Assembly: GCA_013150915.1 (NCBI GenBank)
Contig: JAADJE010000022.1
Coordinates: 1 to 64,000, forward strand
DNA length: 64,000 nt
Source: Gammaproteobacteria bacterium
GTDB lineage: Bacteria > Pseudomonadota > Gammaproteobacteria > BMS3Bbin11
Reading direction: 5' to 3'
Positions 1 through 49,863 of the stretch are shown one piece after another. Positions within the stretch are counted from its first letter, which is position 1; each line of letters starts with the position of its first letter. The notes under the pieces are model-generated. The model did no database searches and had not been told where the DNA came from. It saw only the letters and a program-made list of their open reading frames with translations. Made by a program: the position numbers and the translations under genes.

Positions 1-124
1 TGCGCCGGAATGACGGAGAGATGTTATCGATAGTCATGTCTCCAACACCATTGGGTTCCCTGCATCCCAAGCACTACGACAACGACAGCAATATAAGATC
101 AGGTTAACGGGACAGCAGTGTTTT

Positions 125-173
125 AGCTTTGAACTTTCAACTTTGAACTTTGAACTTTAAACTTTGAGCTTTT
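125..173. repeat. Heptad tandem array, consensus AACTTTG, 7 units
   Basis: Reads agctttg|aactttc|aactttg|aactttg|aacttta|aactttg|agctttt in one 7-nt phase, abutting the stop codon of the 172..2463 gene. Confidence 0.9.
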
Positions 174-2463
174 AGTCAGGCCAGTAGAATTTAGATATAT
201 TGTTCAGTGGTTTCGGGTCTACCAAATACTGATTCTCAAGTATTGGCAGGGTAAAGCGGTTAACCACATATTCAAATTTTGCGCTAGAATCACGTTCCCC
301 CAGAGGGCAATCGGGATCCCGGCCCAGTGAGATGACCAGGCCTTCACCCTGAGGCAGTTCTGAGAGTAGTGTACTGGTACAAACAACCAGATCTCCATCG
401 GATGTAAGGGGTGTCTTGCGTACGAAATAGGATGTGAATGTGTAGCCGTACAAGCCAGATATACTAATATCTGCCGGGCCGTTGTTCATTATCAGAAATT
501 CCAAGTTTTGTCCCTTGAAGCTGGTTCTGGCAATTTCAAGGTCAGTCTGAATCTCCTCTTTACCGCTATTTGCAGACAATTGTTCAAAACTGACAAAATT
601 AGGCAATAATTCAATTTCATTGGTGGCAGCAAGGACTCTGCCGTCAACAGAACGGGCTTGCAGCGTATAGACACCAAAGATGCTACCATCATCAGGAATC
701 TGCCAGAAAAATTGTCCCTTCCTGGCCGCGACAGGATTGTTATTGAGTTTTACAATTTTCTTACTGCTGCCTTCTAACAGAACAAGGTCAAGCTGCTGCC
801 CTGATAATATTTTGAGACTTGCCGGCCAGATAATTTTCAGCAGTTGTTCACCCCGATAGGATGTACCGTTTGCAGGCGAAACAAATTTTGGTATGACTTC
901 TGATTTTTGCCGGACGATCTGAAATGTTCTTTTTAGTGAGGCAATCGCTTTATTTTCAGAGACGATAGTCAGTATGTATTTACCCTCAGGCAGTGCAGAC
1001 AGGTCGGCGGAATAGGCACCGTCATTATTACTGGTAGAACTCAGGACTGTCTCCCTGGTCCGGTTATTCTGTACAGTAATATGTACAAGCTTGCCGATAT
1101 CTTCGCTGGACTTCCAGTTTACAATGAGTTTTCCCTTGCCATCCAGGCGGCTATCTGGACGTGGGCTGGTGATAATGATTTCAGACCTCGAGTCTGCTCC
1201 GGGCGGTACTGGCCTGGCTGCCGCTTGTATCGGGGATGTGGAGACTACACGAAAGGGTCTTGTGTAATTGTCCCGGGTATCTGTCTCTTCTATCTTACCT
1301 TCGATATCCGCTGTGGCTACAAATAGTTTGGATGACGACAATTGATCTTTAGGCCATTTGATCGCAAGTGTTGCGGTTTCACCGGGCTTCAGGCTTTTTA
1401 CCGGTTTACGCATCAGCCAGAGCTTACTCGGCTTCTCCTGTAGCCGCTGCACACCCATCATAAACGACTTTGTCGTTGCTGATTGGCTATTATTTGTGAT
1501 GTAGAAACGTACCTTTCCATCGTTTGTATAATGTGCACCCGAAATGGTTTCAATATAGATGACAAGATTGGCCAAGCGGGCCTGTTTTGCCTTGACTTCG
1601 GGTGTGGCGATAATATCGCCGGATTCCCCCCCCTTTACAGCAGGTCGAACGATCAGCATTTTGCTTATCAGATTATTTCGGTTGGATTTTTCATCGATTT
1701 CTCCATCCGGGTTGATAAATATAAGGACGTCCTTTTTACCCTGACGGGCGGCATTAAATTTGGTATCAATACTGACATGGGAGCCGGCGAGAATATTCAT
1801 GGTGATGTCCTTGCCGTAAGGTTGGCCATTGATAAATATACGGATCTTTACATTGTTGGCCTCCACCGTGCCGATATTAGAGATTTTTGTATTTATTAGG
1901 ATATTTTGACCGACACGAGGAGAGGCGATATTAAAATTTATTTCCTCAGCTGCCAGGTCAGGTTTGCCTGGTTTCAAGTTGTCTGTTATCGTTTTTTCAT
2001 CAACCCCGGTGGATAATGGTTGCTCTGTCATGACGGTTGGTAAAGAAAGAATAGCAAGTTGACGGGAGACTTCATCTGCTTCGATTTTTTCGTTTTCGAT
2101 ATCCAGTACGACACGAAAACGGTAACGCCCCTCGGGCGAATCCTTAAACGAAAAAACAGTTTTGGCATTGCCTGCCAGGTCAAAGGCGGTAATGATTTGC
2201 CTGCCAATTTCTTTTTTGTCAAGATAATAGCGTAAGCGCAGGCGCTTACGTCGTAAGGAAGCCTGTGCACTCACAGTGATATCAGCACTAATTTCTTCAC
2301 CGAGATAGGCGACACTGCGGTTCAGTGAAAACTGTTCGATTTTAATTTGTTTTTTTTCTGTGGCAGAGGCGGCTGTACTCACCAGTATTAGTAAAGATAG
2401 CAGGCATAGTTGTCCCATTGTGCTGAAAAAATTGCCTGAGTTTGATCGTTTTCGACAGTACAT
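172..2463 (-). CDS. Large secreted protein with CARDB-like / Ig-like repeats
   Basis: 763 aa ORF with N-terminal hydrophobic segment; repeated CARDB-like segments such as 'KPDLAAEEINFNIASPRVGQNILINTKISNIGTVEANNVKIRIFING'. Confidence 0.7.
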   Translation of the reverse strand: MYCRKRSNSGNFFSTMGQLCLLSLLILVSTAASATEKKQIKIEQFSLNRSVAYLGEEISADITVSAQASLRRKRLRLRYYLDKKEIGRQIITAFDLAGNAKTVFSFKDSPEGRYRFRVVLDIENEKIEADEVSRQLAILSLPTVMTEQPLSTGVDEKTITDNLKPGKPDLAAEEINFNIASPRVGQNILINTKISNIGTVEANNVKIRIFINGQPYGKDITMNILAGSHVSIDTKFNAARQGKKDVLIFINPDGEIDEKSNRNNLISKMLIVRPAVKGGESGDIIATPEVKAKQARLANLVIYIETISGAHYTNDGKVRFYITNNSQSATTKSFMMGVQRLQEKPSKLWLMRKPVKSLKPGETATLAIKWPKDQLSSSKLFVATADIEGKIEETDTRDNYTRPFRVVSTSPIQAAARPVPPGADSRSEIIITSPRPDSRLDGKGKLIVNWKSSEDIGKLVHITVQNNRTRETVLSSTSNNDGAYSADLSALPEGKYILTIVSENKAIASLKRTFQIVRQKSEVIPKFVSPANGTSYRGEQLLKIIWPASLKILSGQQLDLVLLEGSSKKIVKLNNNPVAARKGQFFWQIPDDGSIFGVYTLQARSVDGRVLAATNEIELLPNFVSFEQLSANSGKEEIQTDLEIARTSFKGQNLEFLIMNNGPADISISGLYGYTFTSYFVRKTPLTSDGDLVVCTSTLLSELPQGEGLVISLGRDPDCPLGERDSSAKFEYVVNRFTLPILENQYLVDPKPLNNISKFYWPD

Positions 2464-12377: not shown

Positions 12378-12386
12378 AAAGATAAC

Positions 12387-12452
12387 TTCAGTGTTCAGTG
12401 TTCAGTGTTCGTTTTAGATTTTGATTTTACTGAAAACCGAACACTGAAAACT
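12387..12452. repeat. Inverted heptad array (TTCAGTG)n ... (TACTGAA/AACCGAA/CACTGAA)
   Basis: ttcagtg x3 at 12387-12407, short spacer, then tactgaa|aaccgaa|cactgaa|aact at 12428-12452, reverse-complementary to the left array. Confidence 0.88.
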
Positions 12453-12457
12453 ATGTG

Positions 12458-12862
12458 TTAAAAATTTATCCCATCAAACTGCTCTCGGTTCGAAATTAGT
12501 GACACGCCCACTTTATTCGGCAGGCAGACGATGTTATCGCCGCTTTGCTGGTGCCAGCCGCTTAATACGCAAAGTTGCCTCTTGCCGGGTGAGCTGATTA
12601 TTCGAACTTTACCGTCACGAATTTCTATTACGCTGTTGCCAAGTTCGCCTGTTACAGTGATCTGCTGCCGGCCTTTTATCGAGTAAACAACGGGGGGCTG
12701 GTTGCCGACAGTGACCTCTATCGCTGCTACCGCACCGGAATCACTTTGAGTCATTGACCACGACAACGGAACAAGCAGTAGACTAAGAAATAAAATCAGC
12801 CAGTCTCCTACTTTCATCTTTATCATGGCATTGAGGGTCAGAAGTCGTAAGTCGTAAATCAC
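12458..12862 (-). CDS. NusG domain II-containing protein
   Basis: 'IEVTVGNQPPVVYSIKGRQQITVTGELGNSVIEIRDGKVRIISSPGKRQLCVLSGWHQQSGDNIVCLPNKVGVSLI'; the true start is probably an internal Met. Confidence 0.85.
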   Translation of the reverse strand: MIYDLRLLTLNAMIKMKVGDWLILFLSLLLVPLSWSMTQSDSGAVAAIEVTVGNQPPVVYSIKGRQQITVTGELGNSVIEIRDGKVRIISSPGKRQLCVLSGWHQQSGDNIVCLPNKVGVSLISNREQFDGINF

Positions 12863-12863
12863 T
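12843..12863. repeat. Short heptad repeat AGTCGTA
   Basis: agtcgta|agtcgta|aatcact across the apbE stop and NusG_II gene start. Confidence 0.6.
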
Positions 12864-13908
12864 GGGTCAGGGACTTGCTGATGATAATTTCTCTTTCTTT
12901 TTCTCCCGGTTCCAGTTTAATTCTTTCCTGCATTGATGGACTCATGATAATGCGTCCCCGTTTATCGATCATCATCACATCGCTTATACCCATTTTTTTT
13001 GCAAGGTCTTGCCAGTAATCTGGGCCAGCTACAAATAATGCGGTGCTGGCTGCATCCGCTAGTGCACCCTTCTTATACAGGACAGTAAGCGATGCCACTT
13101 TGTCAGCAGGGTAGCCGGTACGGGTGTCTATGATGTGATTGTAGCGTTTGCCATCATACGTAAAGTAGCGCTCATAGTCACCGGAGGTAAACACACACTC
13201 GTCCTTTCCCAGTTCTATGCTTGCCATGATCCCGTTACCCGATGGCTTACGTATACCTATGCGCCAGGGACGTTGCCCCCGATCGCCAATCCCACAGAGA
13301 TCACCGCCGGCATTGATCAGGGCGTGTTTTATGCCCAGATTACGCATTTTCTGTAGTCCGATGGAGATAGCGTAACCCTTGGCGATCGCCCCGAGATCCA
13401 GTTGTAGCTGAGGGTTGTGTCCACGCAGTCGATTACCCTCGATCTCGATATCATTTACCGTAGGTAACGTGTCCAGCAGACGCGTAATTGTTTCCTGGCT
13501 GGGCGGTATCTGAGGCCGTTCAGAGTCATGGAAGCCCCAGGACTGAATCAGTTTACCTATCGTCGGATTGAATAAACCATTGCTTAACAGAGAATATTGT
13601 TTCGACAGTTTTATCAGTGGCAGCAAGGTACTGTCTGCAGTAAACCATTCTCCCGTTGCAAGCAAGGCGCTGGTTTGTGTCAGTTTGCTGGGCTGCCAGG
13701 CATGCCAGTCGTTATGCATACGATCAAAATCTGCAAACAGGTCGGCCGCGGCCCGATCCGCCAGTGTCTTATCATTGTCACGGATTTTGACCTCTATCAG
13801 TGTACCAAAAGCAAATGATTGATAGCGATAAAGGTCTTGTTTTCCACAGGCGGCAAGCAGTACTGGCAGGACAAGCAGCATAGCCAGGGGCCATCTGAAG
13901 GACTTCAT
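12859..13908 (-). CDS. apbE: FAD:protein FMN transferase (lipoprotein)
   Basis: Lipobox 'VLLAAC'; 'LDLGAIAKGYAISIGLQKMRNLGIKHALINAGGDL', 'HIIDTRTGYPAD', 'ADAASTALFVAG'. Confidence 0.94.
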   Translation of the reverse strand: MKSFRWPLAMLLVLPVLLAACGKQDLYRYQSFAFGTLIEVKIRDNDKTLADRAAADLFADFDRMHNDWHAWQPSKLTQTSALLATGEWFTADSTLLPLIKLSKQYSLLSNGLFNPTIGKLIQSWGFHDSERPQIPPSQETITRLLDTLPTVNDIEIEGNRLRGHNPQLQLDLGAIAKGYAISIGLQKMRNLGIKHALINAGGDLCGIGDRGQRPWRIGIRKPSGNGIMASIELGKDECVFTSGDYERYFTYDGKRYNHIIDTRTGYPADKVASLTVLYKKGALADAASTALFVAGPDYWQDLAKKMGISDVMMIDKRGRIIMSPSMQERIKLEPGEKEREIIISKSLTQ

Positions 13909-20186: not shown

Positions 20187-23100
20187 ATGAGTCGAGTAGA
20201 CCCCAGTACATTCAGTTGGGTTAAAGATGAGATAGACGAGTCAATTAAACAGGCTCGCTTATCATTGGAGGCCTTTTCCACCTCTACTGACGATACTAGC
20301 CAGATGCGTATGGCCGTTGCTTTTCTGCATCAGGTTTCAGGCACATTACAAATCGTCGAACTTGATGGCGCCGCCAGGCTGGTTAACGAACTTGAACTGG
20401 TATGTGAGGGACTCATTGATGAAAGTATTCCTGCCAGTGAAGAAAACCTGGATACACTGAGCAGAGGTGTATTAAGCCTTAGTACGTATATTTCACAACT
20501 CCATGCCGGTTACCCTGATTCCATCGTCGCTCTGACAGACCTGGTTAACGAATTGCGATCGACACGTGATGCGGACCTCGTCAGTGAGTTTGAACTGTTT
20601 AACCCGGAGCTGAATATTTTTCCAGAGATATCCGGTGTCAGGCCCGCACGTTTAAGTGATGAAAACTTTATTTCTGAGGCCAGCCAGGCGCGTAAGCAAT
20701 TGCTTGCGACGATGGTAAGCTGGTTTAAACAGAAGGAGGAGAAGCAGTCACTAAACACTATCCTTCTGTTATTTACACACCTGAAAAATATCTCCCGTTT
20801 CGACGTCACCTCACAATTATGGTGGGTAGCTACCGCGCTAACTGAGGCATTGCGTGATGGTGGTATTGACAGTACAGAGAATGAAGTCAGACGATTTTTT
20901 GCCACGCTAGAGCAGGAACTGAAACGTATCGTTATCAATGGTGAGTCTGTACTGGTCAAAACACCACTTGAAGCCCTTTTGCGAAGGATGCTGTTCCTGA
21001 TCGGTAAGGCAGCAAGCCGTGGCCCGCTGGTAACTGAAGTTGTGTATGCTTTTGAACTTGATGAACAGGTCAGTGGCAAGCCAACTAAGGATACAGGCAC
21101 TATATTTGAAGCAACAAGTCCCGACGTGCTGCGGCCGATTATGAAAGCACTGGGAGAGGAACTCTCTGTTGCGGAGGGCCATCTCAACGACTATTTTGAT
21201 AGTGAAAAATCTGACAAATCGGTAGAGCATTTACTTTCCAGCCTGGATAAGATTCGTGGTGCAGTTGAGGTAATAAACAAGAAAAAACTCCGCCTCCTGG
21301 TTGAAGAAATTTCGCATACAGCCCTTGCCTATGATGCGGGCGCTATCGTAATAAATAATAATATCGCATTAGAGCTTGCTGAAGGTTTATTGACACTGGA
21401 GAACGCCTGTAACGAGCTTGATGATCCGTCCTCCGACTGGGAAGAAAAAGTAGATCGAGCAGTTTCTGATTTATACTGGATAAGAACCGGTGAGCACATT
21501 GAAGCAAGTTCCTCCGAAGGGATCGGTATAGATATTGATGAGGAAGGGACATTAACTGATGTTGAGTTCTCTCAGTTAGTTAAGGTGGTGGCAGCAGAAA
21601 TTAACACCAACCTCCGGGACGTCGTCGAAAAGTTTGAGAAATATTCCTTAAATATGCACCTTAATGAAATTCTCAAACCTGTCCCCGATAAATTGCGCCA
21701 GATAGAAGGTGCATTACAGATACTTGAGCGTGAACGCGCAATTGAGCTGATTTCGTTGATCAATGAGCAGATCACAGGTATGGCCAACAGGCGTGTTAAA
21801 CCCTCAACTGAGCACGTGGAAACGACGGCCCTGGCAATAAGTGCAATAGAGTCCTATGCAGAATCACTGCAGCATGATCAACCAACCAGTGAGCTTATCG
21901 TAGAACGTGCAATGGAAGAACTGTTGCGCACAGCACCGTCTGATATTTCAGACCGGGAGACTGCCCTTGCGCGAGTTAAGCATATCCGTGATGAAGCCGA
22001 TGACTGGTTACGAAATCCAGAAGATGAACTTCATCTGGCCACCTTACGCAAAGATATGGCAGCCATTATTGCGCTTGCAAAGGGTAATAAAGACGAAAAG
22101 CTGGAGAAAATAGCTGATGAGGTTTCAAGCTTGGTCACTATGTTATCCACGGATCCCGATTTTCTTACTGATGACATAATGACGACTTTTCATCAGTCAT
22201 TATCAATACTTGAAAAACTTACAGAGCGATTGCCTGACGAGATAACCCTGTTTGAGGATAAACAGCGTGATGAACCTCAGCTTAACGAGATAGCCTCTAA
22301 AGATATTGATCTCGGCATTGAACTGGAAGAAATTGATACTTCGGAATTTGTTTCAGAGCAGGAGGCTTATGCTGAAGGCATCAATGAAGCCGATAGGGGA
22401 ATTCAGCCTACAGAGGATATAACAAGAAAACCGGCCATTTTTGATGATGAGATACTTGAGGTTTTTCTTGAAGAAGCCAAAGAAATCACTGCCAACTGTA
22501 GAGATCTTTTACAAAGGTGGGGGGCAGATATTTCTGATGATAAATCACTGGCAGATCTGCGACGAAGTTTTCATACCTTGAAGGGCAGTGGGCGGATGTC
22601 TGGTGCAGTCGAATTTGGTGAATTCTGCTGGTTGATGGAAGAATTACTCAACAATGTGATTGCCGAAAAGCTAGAAGTAAATGATCAGATGCTTGCTTTG
22701 CTTGAGGAATCACTCGATGTTTTGCCATCAATGATTGATGATCTTGAAAGGCATGATGAATCAAACATAGATGTTTCTTATTGGCAGGCGAAAGTAGAAG
22801 AAATCAGATGCAGTGAAAAGCAGCTTGCAGAAGTTGAAGTGACCGATACCACTGCAGATGAAGAATTAAAAGGGACGGCTTCTGTGAGTGAGGAATCTGC
22901 CGAGGAGTTGACAGCGGAGACAGGTCGTGTTGAAGCCGGGCCTGGAGGTGAGGAAGAAACCAAGGCCATAGAGGAGTTAGAGCTTGTAGAGTTAGAAGAA
23001 ACACCTGATAAAGCAGCTGATGTGGAAGATGCTGTTGATAGTGAGATTGATGCTGATGGCGAAGGATCTGAAATTATTCCCGGTCTACCGGCAACCCTCC

Positions 23101-26054
23101 AGTCTCCCACCGTTCGTGAAATCTATGCAACGGAGATAAATAAGCACCTGGATGATCTTATAACCGAAATCAGAAGCTGCAGTGAGAAAAAGAAGCCAGA
23201 GGTTTCTGATTCAATACATCGTTTGATACACACCCTTCGTGGAAGTGCCCGTTCAGTTGGTCTGGATGAGGTGGCGGATAGCTATGAGTCTGTGGAAAAT
23301 CTTTTGGATGGCTTAAGCTCTAGAAGCCTTTATTTAACAAAAGAGGATATCGATATACTCCAGACTGCATATGATTTAGGTATACAGTTACTTGAATCAG
23401 TACAGCAGCCTTCTGCACTGGAAGATCATTTATTGACAGGTATGTCCAAACTGTCAAATCTCTGTAGAAATAGACTGGAAAATCTACCTAATCCACAGTT
23501 ACATGACGGTACTGTTGAGATGCCCAGCTACTTTAATGTAGACGGTAGTGATGAACAGGCAGAACCGAAAGTGCTTGAGGAAGAGCCCGTAGAGGAGGTG
23601 GCTAAAGCGGCTGAGGAAGATACGAAGGATGTTGCGGAGGCGGTTGAGGAAGAACCTCTTGATGAGCTGGTAGAAATTTTCCAGGAAGAAACCATTGATT
23701 TGTTATCCCGTTTCCATGAGTCTCTGGAACTTTGGCGCAAAGACTCGGCTAATGAAGAAGCAAGTTCTGATCTAAAGCGCGTCTTCCATACCATCAAGGG
23801 CAGTGCCAGAATGATGGGGATTTCCAGTATTGGTAACCTTGCACATAATACTGAATCTATGCTTGATGAGGCGGAACGTGCCGGAAACGAAATTGATGAT
23901 TTTCTGTTTGATCTGATTGAGGAGGTTCATGACACCCTGCTGGCAATGGTAGAAAACCCTGTTGGTAAGGAGTTTGATATACAGGCAGACGAAATCAATC
24001 GGCGTTTACTGAATTACTTTTCAGAGGAAGAAGATCAAGCCGTCTTGGATGAAGTTTCCTCAGAGAAGTCTGCAGAAACAGAGGCGTCACAGCTTGCCGA
24101 GCCGGGTAGTGATACAGGAGAAGCTACACTTAAATCTGCCAGAGTAAAAAAGAGTGCCGTACCCCAGTCCCGGTCAAAAAGGGAGAAGTCCAGCGCGGAT
24201 AAACAGATACAGGTCAGAGTTGACTCAGAGTTGCTGGGTACTCTGGCAAACTATGCCGGTGAAGTCAGTATCGCGCGCTCACGTATTCAACAACAGGTTT
24301 CAAACTTTAAGGAAAATCTGGACGAATTACATAAAAACATTGAAAGATTCAACACACAGATTCGTGAGCTGGAAATTCAGGCGGATACACAAATACTTTC
24401 ACGTACTGGAACCGAGGTAGTGTTTAACAAAGATGACGAAGATTTTGATCCACTGGAATTTGATCGTTATACACAATTACAGTTTCTTTCCCGCAACCTG
24501 TCAGAGAGTTTGCATGACTTGATAATGATTCAAACCGGCATGGACAACTTTGCTGGTGATGTCGAATTATTGTTACATGAACAATCTCGCCTGAATACTG
24601 ATCTACAGGAAGGACTAACACAAACCAGGATGGTTGCATTTTCGACCTTGATGCCAAGGTTAAGGCAGTTGACAAGAAAAACATCACGCGAACTGCAAAA
24701 GCCAGTGAATCTAGAGATTACAGGTGGCGAAGTTGAGCTGGACAGAAATGTCATAGACCAGGTTGTCCCTCCACTGGAGCATCTGATTCGCAACTCCATT
24801 GCACATGGAATCGAGACGGCTAAGCAGAGAAAGAAACTGAAGAAGCGGGAAAAAGGTCTGCTTAAGCTCGATATCAGCCGTGAAGGAAAGGATATAATTA
24901 TCGAATTTTCTGATGATGGACAGGGTCTGGATCTGGATAAAATTCGCCACAAGGCAGAAGAAAGAGGTTTGCTGGATAAGGGGATGAACCCGTCGGATGA
25001 TCACCTGGCAAACCTTATTTTTGTACCCGGTTTTTCAACTGCTGACAGTGTCACCCAGGTTTCCGGGCGAGGTGTAGGCATGGATGTTGTCCAGAGTGAG
25101 TTAAAGAAAGTAGGTGGCTCTGTCTCGCTGACAACAGAAAAGAATGGGGGAACACATTTCTTTATCCGCCTGCCCCTTTCAATGACAGTCGCGCAGGCAT
25201 TGATAATTTCCTCAGGGGGGCATCGTTTTGCAGTCCCTCTGATGGCAATCCTGTCTATCACAATGGCGCATAGAAGCCATATTGTATCGGATGCCAGCGG
25301 TGAGCAAAGTGTCACTATAGGTGAAAAAACATACCCGTATATATCACTTGCTGAACGACTGGGCATGTTGGCACAAATGAGTGATGAAACCAAAACGCCA
25401 GCCCTGGTTATGAATGCGGCAACAGGGCCAATTGTTATTGGTGTGGACGAGTTAATACATTCCACTGAGATCGTGGTGAAACCAGTAGGCGTACAGATTG
25501 CATCACTTGATGGGATAGAAGGGGGAACAGTACTCAGTGATGGTGAAGTGGCATTGATTATTGATCTGGTCGACCTGTGGAATACCCGGCATGCTGAAAG
25601 AGATGAGATTGATCAGGCCAGTCTGGTGGCCAAACTGGAGGAGGATATCAGTCCAGCTACTGTTATGGTTGTTGATGATTCGTTGACGGTAAGACGGGTT
25701 ACTGAAAGAAACCTGAGTAAATATGGCATCATTACAGTGCTCGCAACAGATGGTATTGATGCGATGGAGAAGCTTTCTGATGAGGTGCCTGATGTTATGT
25801 TGGTTGACATAGAAATGCCTCGTATGGATGGATTTGAACTGACAGAGCGTGTTAGGGATGATCCTGTCTACAAGGATATTCCAATAATCATCATTACATC
25901 CCGTTCTGGCCCCAAGCACCGTGACAGAGCAATGGAACTTGGTGCAACGCTCTATCTAAGCAAGCCGTATCAGGAGCTGGAATTAATGAATGCAATCAAT
26001 TCTGTGTTGCCACTTGAAAGTTCACGTAAGATTAGTGCGATGATGGAGAGTTGA
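20187..26054 (+). CDS. chpA: Hybrid sensor kinase ChpA/PilL with multiple Hpt domains, CheA core and receiver
   Basis: 1955 aa; Hpt motifs 'FHTLKGSGRM', 'IHTLRGSARS', 'FHTIKGSARM'; CheA 'HLIRNSIAHGIE'; C-terminal receiver 'VMVVDDSLTVRRV'. Confidence 0.94.
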   Translation: MSRVDPSTFSWVKDEIDESIKQARLSLEAFSTSTDDTSQMRMAVAFLHQVSGTLQIVELDGAARLVNELELVCEGLIDESIPASEENLDTLSRGVLSLSTYISQLHAGYPDSIVALTDLVNELRSTRDADLVSEFELFNPELNIFPEISGVRPARLSDENFISEASQARKQLLATMVSWFKQKEEKQSLNTILLLFTHLKNISRFDVTSQLWWVATALTEALRDGGIDSTENEVRRFFATLEQELKRIVINGESVLVKTPLEALLRRMLFLIGKAASRGPLVTEVVYAFELDEQVSGKPTKDTGTIFEATSPDVLRPIMKALGEELSVAEGHLNDYFDSEKSDKSVEHLLSSLDKIRGAVEVINKKKLRLLVEEISHTALAYDAGAIVINNNIALELAEGLLTLENACNELDDPSSDWEEKVDRAVSDLYWIRTGEHIEASSSEGIGIDIDEEGTLTDVEFSQLVKVVAAEINTNLRDVVEKFEKYSLNMHLNEILKPVPDKLRQIEGALQILERERAIELISLINEQITGMANRRVKPSTEHVETTALAISAIESYAESLQHDQPTSELIVERAMEELLRTAPSDISDRETALARVKHIRDEADDWLRNPEDELHLATLRKDMAAIIALAKGNKDEKLEKIADEVSSLVTMLSTDPDFLTDDIMTTFHQSLSILEKLTERLPDEITLFEDKQRDEPQLNEIASKDIDLGIELEEIDTSEFVSEQEAYAEGINEADRGIQPTEDITRKPAIFDDEILEVFLEEAKEITANCRDLLQRWGADISDDKSLADLRRSFHTLKGSGRMSGAVEFGEFCWLMEELLNNVIAEKLEVNDQMLALLEESLDVLPSMIDDLERHDESNIDVSYWQAKVEEIRCSEKQLAEVEVTDTTADEELKGTASVSEESAEELTAETGRVEAGPGGEEETKAIEELELVELEETPDKAADVEDAVDSEIDADGEGSEIIPGLPATLQSPTVREIYATEINKHLDDLITEIRSCSEKKKPEVSDSIHRLIHTLRGSARSVGLDEVADSYESVENLLDGLSSRSLYLTKEDIDILQTAYDLGIQLLESVQQPSALEDHLLTGMSKLSNLCRNRLENLPNPQLHDGTVEMPSYFNVDGSDEQAEPKVLEEEPVEEVAKAAEEDTKDVAEAVEEEPLDELVEIFQEETIDLLSRFHESLELWRKDSANEEASSDLKRVFHTIKGSARMMGISSIGNLAHNTESMLDEAERAGNEIDDFLFDLIEEVHDTLLAMVENPVGKEFDIQADEINRRLLNYFSEEEDQAVLDEVSSEKSAETEASQLAEPGSDTGEATLKSARVKKSAVPQSRSKREKSSADKQIQVRVDSELLGTLANYAGEVSIARSRIQQQVSNFKENLDELHKNIERFNTQIRELEIQADTQILSRTGTEVVFNKDDEDFDPLEFDRYTQLQFLSRNLSESLHDLIMIQTGMDNFAGDVELLLHEQSRLNTDLQEGLTQTRMVAFSTLMPRLRQLTRKTSRELQKPVNLEITGGEVELDRNVIDQVVPPLEHLIRNSIAHGIETAKQRKKLKKREKGLLKLDISREGKDIIIEFSDDGQGLDLDKIRHKAEERGLLDKGMNPSDDHLANLIFVPGFSTADSVTQVSGRGVGMDVVQSELKKVGGSVSLTTEKNGGTHFFIRLPLSMTVAQALIISSGGHRFAVPLMAILSITMAHRSHIVSDASGEQSVTIGEKTYPYISLAERLGMLAQMSDETKTPALVMNAATGPIVIGVDELIHSTEIVVKPVGVQIASLDGIEGGTVLSDGEVALIIDLVDLWNTRHAERDEIDQASLVAKLEEDISPATVMVVDDSLTVRRVTERNLSKYGIITVLATDGIDAMEKLSDEVPDVMLVDIEMPRMDGFELTERVRDDPVYKDIPIIIITSRSGPKHRDRAMELGATLYLSKPYQELELMNAINSVLPLESSRKISAMMES

Positions 26055-34033: not shown

Positions 34034-35071
34034 ATGGCTCTTGTTTCAATGCGACAGTTGCTGGATTATGCGGCAGAAAATGATTTCGGTATGCCTGCAT
34101 TTAATGTAAACAATATGGAGCAGGTACATGCCATCATGCAGGCGGCCGATGCCGTTGATGCACCTGTTATTATGCAGGGATCAGCGGGCGCTCGTTCATA
34201 CGCCGGTGAATCATTTCTACGCCACATAATCACTGCGGCGGTCGAACAGTATCCACATATTCCTGTTGTAATGCATCAGGATCACGGTTCGGAGCCGGCA
34301 GTTTGTTTGCGCTCAATCCAGTCTGGTTTTTCCTCAGTTATGATGGATGGTTCCCTGATGGCAGACATGAAGACACCTTCAACATTTGAATATAATGTAG
34401 AGGTTACCAAAAAGGTTGTCGATATGGCGCATGCTGGCGGTGTTTCAGTTGAAGGCGAACTGGGTTGCCTGGGCTCGTTGGAAACAGGTGAAATGGGTGA
34501 AGAAGACGGCCACGGTGCAGAAGGCAAACTGGACATGGATATGTTGCTGACCGATGTCGAAGAGGCAGCGGCTTTCGTTGAGCAGACTGGTGTTGATGCG
34601 CTGGCAATCGCCATTGGTACTTCACACGGTGCCTACAAATTCACCAAAGAACCAACCGGCGATATTTTGCGTATAGACCGTATTAAGGAAATCCATAATC
34701 GTATACCGAATACCCATCTGGTTATGCACGGTTCCTCTTCAGTACCACAGGACTGGCTGGAAATCATCAACAACTACGGTGGTGATATGGGTCAGACCTA
34801 CGGTGTGCCAGTAGAAGAAATACAGGAGGGTATCAAACACGGTGTCGCAAAGGTTAATATTGATACTGATTTGCGTATGGCGTCTACAGGCGCTATTCGC
34901 CGTTTTCTGAGCGAGAATCCCTCTGTCTTTGATCCTCGAAAATTTCTCAAGGCATCAACAGATGCCATGATGGCAATTTGCAAAGCGCGTTATGAAGCAT
35001 TTGGCTGTGTTGGGCATGCCAGTAAGATCAAGGCGAAGAGATTGGAAGAGATGGTTTCTTATTATAGTTAG
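34034..35071 (+). CDS. fba: Class II fructose-1,6-bisphosphate aldolase
   Basis: '[38 protein letters not shown]' and '[13 protein letters not shown]'. Confidence 0.95.
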
Positions 35072-35096: not shown

Positions 35097-35132
35097 AAAC
35101 GGGTGTAGGGGGCTTTCCTTACGCCCGTTTTT
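35097..35132 (+). terminator. Rho-independent terminator after fba
   Basis: aaacgggtgtaggg ... ccttacgcccgttttt. Confidence 0.75.
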
Positions 35133-35142
35133 ATAATGCTGG

Positions 35143-35224
35143 CTCAAAGCTCAAAGCTCAAAGTCACAGGACGCTGATCTTTTTTTTCGCTTTTCACTTT
35201 AGGCTTTGAGCTTTAAGCTTCTTT
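35143..35224. repeat. Inverted heptad array (CTCAAAG)3 ... CTTTTCA/CTTTAGG/CTTTGAG/CTTTAAG/CTTCTTT
   Basis: Left ctcaaag x3 at 35143-35163; right array 35190-35224 in one 7-nt phase and reverse-complementary; the right array encodes the Bcp C-terminus. Confidence 0.9.
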
Positions 35225-35679: not shown

Positions 35680-35704
35680 TATTGTTCTCCGTGTAAATAC
35701 GACT

Positions 35705-35770
35705 TTCAGTTTTTAGTTTCTGGTTTTTTGTATCTTACTGAACACAGAAAACCGAAAACAGAGCACTACC
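35705..35770. repeat. Inverted heptad array TTCAGTT/TTTAGTT/TCTGGTT ... TACTGAA/CACAGAA/AACCGAA/AACAGAG/CACTACC
   Basis: Left heptads 35705-35725; right heptads 35736-35770; inverted relative to each other; runs into the 3' end of the downstream gene. Confidence 0.85.
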
Positions 35771-41292: not shown

Positions 41293-41823
41293 ATGCCGAC
41301 GTATAGGGAGGTGACCAGTGCTTTACGACGGGTAAACAGCCAGTTGTCCGCTGCAGAGTGTCATGGTTTGATTGCAGGTGCCCTGAATACGCAAAATACG
41401 GCCTCGATTATGAGGTTCTTTACTGATGATCCTGAATCTTTACAACAGGACCCTGAGTTTTCTGTACTTATTTCACAGCTGGTACAGGTAAGCTCTGAGG
41501 GGTACAGAGACGAGGGCTTCAATTTTCAGTTTCTGTTGCCAGATGATGCCATTCCTCTGCTGGAGAGGAGTCGTGCACTGGCGGAATGGTGTGGGGGCTA
41601 CGTGATGGGTCTGCTCGAATCTGGTCTAAAAGAATTTGATAAACTGCCACAAGATGCTGCAGAAGTGGCAAAGGATCTGGTCGAAATATCTCAGCTTGAT
41701 ACGTCTATAGATGTCAGCGGTTCAGACAATGATTTGATGCAATTGGAGGAATATGTGCGTGTTGGTATACAGATAATTTATAGGGCGTTAATTAATGAGT
41801 GTGGCTGGGAAGCAGGTAAATAG
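41293..41823 (+). CDS. UPF0149 (YgfB/YecA) family protein
   Basis: 'SAAECHGLIAGALN' and 'LAEWCGGYVMGLLESGL'; start possibly at 41272. Confidence 0.92.
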   Translation: MPTYREVTSALRRVNSQLSAAECHGLIAGALNTQNTASIMRFFTDDPESLQQDPEFSVLISQLVQVSSEGYRDEGFNFQFLLPDDAIPLLERSRALAEWCGGYVMGLLESGLKEFDKLPQDAAEVAKDLVEISQLDTSIDVSGSDNDLMQLEEYVRVGIQIIYRALINECGWEAGK

Positions 41824-41848
41824 GGTGCAACGGGCAGGGACAGTGAAA

Positions 41849-43150
41849 ATGAATAATCAGTACACAAAACGTCGCCAGGAAGTGATGCAGATGATGGGTG
41901 GTGGGGTCGCGATTATACCGACAGCCAGTGAACGGGTACGCAGTCGGGATGTACTGTATCCCTTTCGTGCATCCAGTGATTTTTACTACCTGACACATTT
42001 TAATGAGCCAGAAGCCGTTGCGGTACTGGTGCCAGGACGGGAACATGGCGAGTTTATTATGTTTTGCCGGGAAAGAGACCCAGAAAAAGAAACCTGGGAT
42101 GGTTATCGAGCTGGGTTGGAAGGTGTTTGTGAATATTATGGTGCGGATGATGCTTTTCCGATTACGGATATTGACGAGATCGTACCGGGATTGCTGGAGA
42201 ATCGTGAAAAAGTATTTTACAGCATGGGTGCCAACGATGAATTTGATTCACGCCTGATGACCTGGGTGAATGAGGTGCGCAGCAAGGCCCGTACCGGGAT
42301 ATCAGCACCGGCCGAGATACTTGATCTTGGCCATATCCTGCATGAAATGCGGCTGGTGAAGCGCTGTGAAGAAAAGGCCCTTATACAGAAGGCCTGCAAG
42401 ATATCATCACGTGCCCATAAGCAGGCGATGAAGGTGTGCAAACCCGGCATGAAAGAATACGAAATTGAAGCCGAGTTTCAGTATATCTTTCGCAAGAAGG
42501 GCAGTGAATTTCCGGCGTATCCCCCTATAGTGGCTACGGGCGAGAATACCTGTGTGCTGCATTACACAGAGAACAGGGCGGAGCTAAAAGACGGTGATAT
42601 GTTGTTGATCGATGCCGGTTGTGAAATCGATGGTTATGCCGCAGATATCTCACGCAGTTTTCCTGTCAACGGTAAATTTAGCACAGAGCAACGTGCACTG
42701 TATGAGGTGGTGCTGGCTGCGCAGCAGGCAGCTATGGATACCATCAAACCCGGCACGACCTGGGATGTGCCACATAATGCGGCGGTGCGTGTGATAACAG
42801 AGGGGCTAATTGAACATGGGTTGCTGCAGGGCGATGTGGATGAATTACTCGGTACTGAGGCCTACCAGCGTTTCTATATGCACAAAACTGGCCACTGGTT
42901 AGGGCTGGATGTGCATGATGTTGGGGACTATAAAGTCAATGATAGCTGGCGTGAGCTTGAATGCGGGATGATAATGACCGTTGAACCGGGCCTTTACATC
43001 ACTGCGGGTGCAGAGGACATTGATGAACGATGGTGGAATATTGGTATCCGAATAGAAGACGACGTCGCCATAACAAAGAATGGCTATGAGGTTTTGAGTA
43101 TTGATGCACCGAAACAGATTGATGATATAGAGCACATAATGAAAAGGTAA
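41849..43150 (+). CDS. pepP: Xaa-Pro aminopeptidase
   Basis: 'DVLYPFRASSDFYYLTHFNEPEAVAVLVPG', 'HKTGHWLGLDVHDVGDY', 'GMIMTVEPGLYI'; start taken at MNNQYTKRR. Confidence 0.94.
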   Translation: MNNQYTKRRQEVMQMMGGGVAIIPTASERVRSRDVLYPFRASSDFYYLTHFNEPEAVAVLVPGREHGEFIMFCRERDPEKETWDGYRAGLEGVCEYYGADDAFPITDIDEIVPGLLENREKVFYSMGANDEFDSRLMTWVNEVRSKARTGISAPAEILDLGHILHEMRLVKRCEEKALIQKACKISSRAHKQAMKVCKPGMKEYEIEAEFQYIFRKKGSEFPAYPPIVATGENTCVLHYTENRAELKDGDMLLIDAGCEIDGYAADISRSFPVNGKFSTEQRALYEVVLAAQQAAMDTIKPGTTWDVPHNAAVRVITEGLIEHGLLQGDVDELLGTEAYQRFYMHKTGHWLGLDVHDVGDYKVNDSWRELECGMIMTVEPGLYITAGAEDIDERWWNIGIRIEDDVAITKNGYEVLSIDAPKQIDDIEHIMKR

Positions 43151-43217
43151 AAGAAGAAAGAGGGGTTGCGATTTTGATTTTCCTTTCCTCTTTAAACTTT
43201 CCTCTTTTCTCTGCCTT
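43151..43217. repeat. Heptad-phased pyrimidine array CTTTCCT/CTTTAAA/CTTTCCT/CTTTTCT/CTGCCTT with purine-rich left arm
   Basis: Right array 43183-43217 in 7-nt phase; left aaagaagaaagagggg is purine-rich and partly reverse-complementary. Confidence 0.6.
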
Positions 43218-49830: not shown

Positions 49831-49863
49831 CTTGGAAGTTCCAAGTTCCAAGTTCCAAGATCT
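49831..49863. repeat. Heptad array AAGTTCC x3 with flanking cttgg/aagatct
   Basis: cttgg|aagttcc|aagttcc|aagttcc|aagatct, immediately after the gcvH stop. Confidence 0.85.

Follow-up and report, generated by a model that had tools for sequence, protein, structure and literature searches.

The genomes of this gammaproteobacterial genus carry tandem arrays of 7-nt units (heptads) that stand as inverted pairs with a fixed polarity, abut the 3' ends of genes, and recur at orthologous gene ends with changed heptads. Each species has its own heptad dialect, common to dozens of dispersed loci; copy number changes by whole units; and, in one family of elements, the order of sequence variants is mirrored between the two arms. 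The window, namely, the whole stretch of DNA analyzed (64,000 nt), contains such an element between fba and bcp (35143-35224), with the following parts and neighbors.

34034-35071, plus strand: fructose-bisphosphate aldolase class II gene (fba), convergent neighbor of bcp
35099-35132, plus strand: terminator-like hairpin belonging to fba itself (ACGGGTGTAGG..CTTACGCCCGTTTTT), located ahead of the array and kept in relatives
35143-35163, plus strand: left arm, CTCAAAG x3, AAAG-type heptads, read from the sequence
35164-35189, no strand: spacer between the arms, 26 nt, read from the sequence
35190-35224, plus strand: right arm, five period-7 CTTT-type units, holding the bcp stop and last nine codons
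35194-35679, minus strand: bcp, AhpC-TSA peroxiredoxin, C-terminus KKLKAQSLK*

The layout that the initial annotation had assigned to this element (three CTCAAAG units, a spacer, and right units) was recovered at these positions, the right-arm units being, in order, CTTTTCA CTTTAGG CTTTGAG CTTTAAG CTTCTTT. The bcp stop codon (TCA on the plus strand, 35194-35196) lies within the first right unit, and 35197-35224 codes for the nine residues KKLKAQSLK, in agreement with the earlier claim that the array supplies the tail and stop of Bcp. A tail conserved in species lacking the repeat, named beforehand as evidence against this claim, was not found, since Bcp of three relatives in the same genus (G001, G003, and G005) ends in VKSL* without KKLKAQSLK. 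Judging from these sequences, the C-terminus of Bcp is array-derived, and the right arm has replaced the ending seen in the relatives. The predicted fold of the whole element has an energy of -28.4 kcal/mol (z -5.0). In Thioploca and Halobeggiatoa, an inverted TTCTTAA/TTAAGAA heptad element is located directly behind fba (L115:7067-7178, L122:7077-7186); the same gene thus adjoins a heptad element there and in the window.

The initial annotation had counted seven or more sites of this repeat class, and at least seven period-7 sites were located within the window, including the following.

121-175, minus strand: AAAG-type array, directly behind the stop of a CARDB-domain gene (172-2463, minus strand) and beside a dispersed GTTAACGGGACAGCAGTG repeat
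12384-12452, minus strand: inverted TTCAGTG/ACTGAA element behind a NusG_II-domain gene
12842-12860, no strand: AAGTCGT heptads at the 3' end of a gene (12859-13908, minus strand)
35703-35762, minus strand: degenerate inverted CAGTTTT/AAAACTG element, directly behind a FecCD-type permease gene
43143-43207, plus strand: inverted AAAG/CTTT element overlapping the stop of aminopeptidase P (41795-43150)
49836-49862, plus strand: AAGTTCC array, five bases behind the gcvH stop

The site orthologous to 12384-12452 in G001 holds a related inverted element, and the spacer core of the element at 43143-43207 (AAAATCAAAATCGCAACC) was also found at other loci. The site of the gcvH array is occupied in the sister species (G002) by a long AAAGACC array (G002:C34:14544-14666); a long AAAGACC array is also present in the host (G000:C10:79516-79630). 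Separately, the window encodes a 1955-aa hybrid signaling protein (20187-26054) with Hpt domains, a histidine kinase, CheW, and a response regulator, of a ChpA-like pilus chemotaxis type.

Period 7 was far above the other periods. Using one detector, 55 period-7 arrays scoring >=12 were found in 934 kb of the host genome, compared with 1-9 at every other non-multiple period, and 0 in Markov shuffles; contigs C1-C20, picked regardless of repeats, contained 8 against <=2 at other periods. G002 contained 73 period-7 arrays in 913 kb against <=8 at other non-multiple periods. In approximately 80 loci of other species, 20 period-7 rows (a few of them N runs) were found against 3-10 at other non-multiples. 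The heptads are therefore tandem 7-nt units beyond chance, as in heptanucleotide long simple sequence repeats. The stretches analyzed amount to approximately one-third of each of the host and G002 genomes, and the array densities per Mb are upper estimates because several contigs were chosen for holding arrays. Genes were called by a simple ORF rule, by which stops are reliable and starts less so. Eleven of 73 arrays were no more than 250 nt from a contig end, where 1.6 would be expected, and array lengths may be wrong because the fragmented assembly tends to break contigs at arrays.

The two arms of an element are inverted relative to each other. In a motif-agnostic comparison of neighboring pairs, inverted similarity exceeded direct similarity in 29 of 31 (host) and 28 of 34 (sister species), and own partners matched better than swapped partners (z 4.6 and 6.4, respectively, both p<1e-4), while direct similarity between the neighboring arrays of these pairs showed no excess over swapped partners. 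The inverted layout of the initial annotation thus withstood the swapped-arm controls. Its description of a changing motif with a constant period was also correct, except that the sequences are not unrelated: most heptads share an AAG.../...CTT scaffold, and the rest is variable.

The order of the arms is fixed. The pattern AAAGN3AAAG...CTTTN3CTTT had 76 matches in the host genome and its reverse order had 0, and no CTTT-then-AAAG match was detected in any of 37 relatives; among 274 gammaproteobacteria, the forward pattern was otherwise rare (<=11 per genome) and the reverse occurred <=2 times per genome, all of these counts being overlapping windows rather than independent sites. A second genus (G074 and G204) had the same architecture with AAAGGCT units, and other classes are likewise fixed in order: TTCAGTG then ACTGAA, and AAGTTCC then GGAACTT.

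In the AAGWYCC elements of G002 and G003, the order of TT and AT variants was mirrored between arms (e.g., TT TT AT TT in both), and this mirroring exceeded that of swapped arms (p=0.003 by unit and 0.0006 by nucleotide). In the AAAG dialect of the host, partner arms fitted no better than the arms of other loci (p=0.58, length-normalized, 23 pairs), and therefore arm-to-arm templating was not visible in the very class that the initial annotation had described. An apparently worse fit of own than of swapped AAAG/CTTT arms (raw complementarity, ten pairs) was rejected because arm lengths were confounded. Taken together, the mirrored variants and the host result suggested that the arms are, or once were, mutual inverted copies, those of the host having diverged within the scaffold.

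Every element tested was predicted to fold as a hairpin, with z values down to -13.7 in G002, and the fold energy worsened on swapping right arms (z -2.3 in the host and -6.3 in G002). Spacers as a class were no more structured than shuffled sequence (mean z 0.02), and GC-structured spacers as terminator cores were rejected on this value. An Rfam search of four array-rich loci returned only tRNAs above the gathering score.

Plain independent slippage, in which every array arises on its own in the unconstrained DNA that follows genes and neither arms nor loci are copied from one another, is disfavored and, in our judgment, very improbable. It agrees with the whole-unit length changes and with heptads being the commonest long simple repeats in many bacteria, a prevalence for which the polymerase footprint has been put forward as the cause (Mrazek 2007, cited in PMC4679880 and PMC4692102); however, inverted arm matching, mirrored variant order, genome-wide dialects, and fixed polarity are not expected from it.

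Arrays were concentrated at gene 3' ends: 27 of 67 in the host lay <=10 nt from one, whereas random intergenic placement expects 7-8, and the corresponding value in G002 was 42 of 104 (9.9 expected). At gene 5' ends, there was at most a slight excess in both species, and inverted heptad pairs were uncommon between divergent genes. Among AAAG arrays beside a stop codon, AAAG was on the sense strand of the gene at a ratio of 20:1. A purine-on-sense rule for every class was considered and dropped, since this preference, clear in AAAG/CTTT, was weak over all classes (19:8 and 25:17). Fifteen arrays extend 1-20 nt into coding sequence, the Bcp case being alike. The placement and polarity suggest a role at the transcript end, or tolerance there, and a function of the elements as putative 3' stem-loops is plausible.

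In line with this, the elements may be selected 3'-end hairpins (bidirectional terminators or mRNA 3' stem-loops), with selection acting only on pairing and on placement at the end, and with tandem heptads as a simple means of forming a stem. This explanation, which we regard as a serious possibility falling short of probable, accounts for the 3'-end abutment, the sense polarity, the strong predicted stems, the scarcity of pairs between divergent genes, and the fixed AAAG-to-CTTT order, A-rich then T-rich being the order of a bidirectional terminator. On the other hand, fba retains an ordinary terminator ahead of the array, the A/T order of the TTCAGTG/ACTGAA class is reversed, the folding of spacers does not surpass that of shuffled sequence, and the partner arms of the host dialect pair no better than swapped ones. 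Compared with intrinsic terminators, the elements have predicted stems, unstructured spacers, and one class with the opposite A/T order. Selection of hairpins is not exclusive of the slippage and template-switch model described below.

The same gene ends carry arrays in different species. Among 179 reciprocal orthologs (median identity of 89%), analyzed on contiguous blocks, an array was present behind the gene in both species in 8, in only one in 4 and 16, and in neither in 151; this co-occurrence was significant (p=1e-5), and nothing comparable was found at other periods. Most shared sites had a different heptad class in both arms, as in L175 gene 10 of the host (AGTTGAA.../CTTTGAG) and L331 gene 15 of G002 (AGTTCCA.../CTTGGAA). 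Some orthologous sites were wholly different including the spacer and another was near-identical; wholesale differences of this kind fit replacement or insertion better than gradual drift. Behind L175 gene 6 and L331 gene 12, TTCAGTG x3 and x6 were found between near-identical flanks, and the comparison of L171 gene 6 with L349 gene 0 has the appearance of in situ growth from a 2-unit seed. Two Lamellibrachia symbiont genomes have a common inverted AGGGCCR heptad element with 2 and 3 right-arm units (L152:3107-3155 and L153:3100-3155), the one-unit difference being limited to that arm.

The dialects were evident in whole-genome counts of twofold words (overlapping windows): AAAGYTN occurred 168 times in the host and 3, 0, 0, 0, 0, and 1 times in six congeners, and AAGWYCC 5 times in the host and 6, 158, 42, 32, 9, and 103 times in the congeners, 158 being the value of G002. 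Neither word was found in three genomes outside the genus, and a reversed AAGWYCC control gave zero in all genomes counted. Since dialects extend over dispersed loci, these loci share sequence by a common source, exchange, or common bias.

A common source would be provided by short non-autonomous MITE- or REP-like elements that insert behind stops and replace each other, a dialect being a recently spread family; we consider this mobile-cassette explanation rather unlikely. Consistent with it, the spacer core GAAACAATCTCGCGAG is present in contigs C94 (twice), C119, and C40, and TCAAAATCGNAAC in both G000 (the host) and G002; arms and spacer change together at orthologous sites; other inverted elements use the same 3' slots and can nest; and the host genome encodes eight Y1/IS200-REP-type transposase domains (G000 contigs C10, C14, C41, C48, C49, C84, and C106), for which no link to the arrays was seen. 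Against it, the majority of spacers are unique to their element, the number of units and the sequence of the arms are freely variable, the alignments examined revealed no target-site duplication or clean empty site, and L182 gene 14 and L171 gene 6 resemble growth in place. REP, BIME, and MITE elements are marked by a conserved palindromic unit or by termini of fixed sequence; here, spacer cores are common to only a minority of loci, and this sharing favors some whole-element copying. A universal spacer core (AATCAAAATCG) was sought and found in only approximately 7 element spacers.

Alternatively, a trans-acting DNA- or RNA-binding factor may read the heptads, as ComP reads Neisseria uptake sequences, with its shifting specificity driving the dialect. 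Dialects that differ by species but preserve a scaffold, together with gene-end inverted pairs, are also known from DNA uptake sequence dialects (PMC3630211); however, the arrays are tandem and confined to a limited number of sites, unlike single words present in thousands, and one genome contains several unlike heptad classes. We judge this explanation improbable.

Other dispersed repeats were observed in the same genomes. A second repeat, ending GTTAACGGGACAGCAGTG, has approximately 21-24 core copies in 0.93 Mb, often as facing pairs, with two upstream variants (CATGACGATGTGGC and AATAAGATCAG); its sites include window 60-125, L036:932, L165:2481, L171:13890-17053, L182:12744, and L185, among others. 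A link between the heptad elements and the GTTAACGGGACAG repeat was examined and abandoned, as it holds at only approximately 5 of 60 elements. Period-9 elements (CACAGAGGN / CCTCTGTGN), inverted like the heptads, are found in the host (L175:15747 and L176:1569) and G002 (L349:1785-1920 and L351:505-686), where one in L351 is nested within the arms of an AAGTTCC heptad element. An inverted GTAGGAGCGCCGCCTCGGCGCGA element lies downstream of L171 gene 8 and L175 gene 1, and the same gene-end slot holds heptads in G002.

The mechanism that we propose, and to which we assign about an even chance, combines 7-nt slippage, template switching at inverted repeats, and spread from one gene-end locus to another. 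Arrays would lengthen and shorten by whole 7-nt steps through replication slippage, and each inverted arm would be formed, and occasionally corrected, on the template of the other through a switch across the hairpin (quasi-palindrome correction), after which the two would diverge. Sequence would move between loci by ectopic conversion or element copying, giving a species-specific dialect, while selection would exclude the elements from coding and promoter DNA and tolerate or favor them at gene 3' ends, where they would be transcribed as a 3' stem-loop. The whole-unit changes agree with slippage and the mirrored variants with arm-to-arm copying, which has template switching in quasi-palindromes as its known route (PMC7202029, PMC8794818). 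The dialects common to dispersed loci require that loci exchange sequence, that elements spread, or that a bias is shared. From these patterns, we infer that template switching is the cause, that loci exchange sequence, and that the elements may act at transcript 3' ends. Counting against the proposal, the AAAG arms of the host fit their partners no better than swapped arms, some orthologous sites differ wholesale, no conversion tract could be traced to a donor and a recipient, and the array lengths of the fragmented assembly may be wrong.

The initial annotation had suggested a generating process rather than descent from one sequence. Heptad replacement at orthologous sites and the mirrored arms of G002 and G003 do favor templated copying, but the motif is not free and dialects are shared by dozens of loci. 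In a stronger version, which we offer tentatively and doubt, a templated process independent of any one sequence would produce matched inverted pairs of 7-nt arrays at the 3' ends of genes and overwrite them throughout the genome. Period, polarity, and place would then be passed on without the letters, and the species of one genus would use different heptad dialects at the same genes, a concerted evolution of dispersed bacterial DNA.

The reason why heptads are the favored simple repeat of bacteria has been an open question since 2007 or earlier. A natural experiment on it is offered by this genus, in which proteins are approximately 90% identical and the gene ends are the same, while both arms hold unlike heptads and dialects extend genome-wide. 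Period, inversion, polarity, and place can here be distinguished, as conserved features, from the letters, which are free to change, and the genus makes slippage, template switching, transposition, and 3' stem-loop selection testable against each other. Cyanobacterial STRR sequences are likewise tandem 7-mers with several families per genome, and differ in having specific consensus motifs; we know of no inverted-pair or gene-3'-end rule for them.

The heptanucleotide long simple repeats of Mrazek et al. 2007 similarly over-represent a 7-nt unit; this class, as cited, is statistical and, to the extent of those citations, silent on inversion, polarity, and dialects. The TAACTGA repeats of marine Beggiatoaceae (MacGregor 2015; 169 direct sets and one inverted, before start codons) resemble the present elements as intergenic heptads at many loci of sulfur-oxidizing Gammaproteobacteria with indels in 7-nt steps, but have one fixed motif, are nearly always direct, and precede starts (PMC4679880), none of which applied here. 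Of the comparisons with cyanobacterial and TAACTGA repeats in the initial annotation, only the period of 7 was apt. The DNA uptake sequence dialects of Neisseriaceae share short words, species dialects with a kept core, and inverted pairs tied to terminators, but are single 10-12-mers with thousands of copies and a known receptor, in contrast to tandem arrays (PMC3630211); they may serve as an analogy for dialects and gene-end inverted pairs, rather than indicating family membership. Quasi-palindrome template-switch mutation also copies one inverted-repeat arm into the other (PMC7202029, PMC8794818), but is not known for building tandem heptads or species dialects.

The closest system is the GGGAATC / GGGGA(T/C)T heptamer repeats of Xanthomonas and Nostoc described by Rehm et al. 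2015, who also mention cyanobacterial STRR heptanucleotides (Calothrix) and reported 70-75 convergent GGGAATC pairs per Xanthomonas genome (PMC4692102); inverted heptad pairs are, therefore, not new as such. As in those repeats, the units are tandem, keep a fixed scaffold around letters that vary, and are located mainly in intergenic DNA close behind the upstream gene, with a coding-strand preference downstream of genes and convergent inverted pairs, and, as in Xanthomonas, the same genes in sister species carry another length and sequence (PMC4692102). In contrast to them, units here mostly lack GGG runs (the host dialect AAAGYTN has none, and some G002 units, such as AAAGGGG, have one), one genome contains several heptad classes, genome-wide dialects differ between close species, and arms co-vary, those of G002 and G003 mirroring variant order. 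G-quadruplexes are thus not the common cause, because the elements share the Xanthomonas architecture without G-quadruplex units, and this architecture does not need them. While tandem heptads and convergent pairs just behind genes were already known from Xanthomonas, the 3'-end abutment, the fixed AAAG-then-CTTT order, the recurrence at orthologous sites with changed heptads, the dialects, and the mirrored variants of G002 and G003 are new here.
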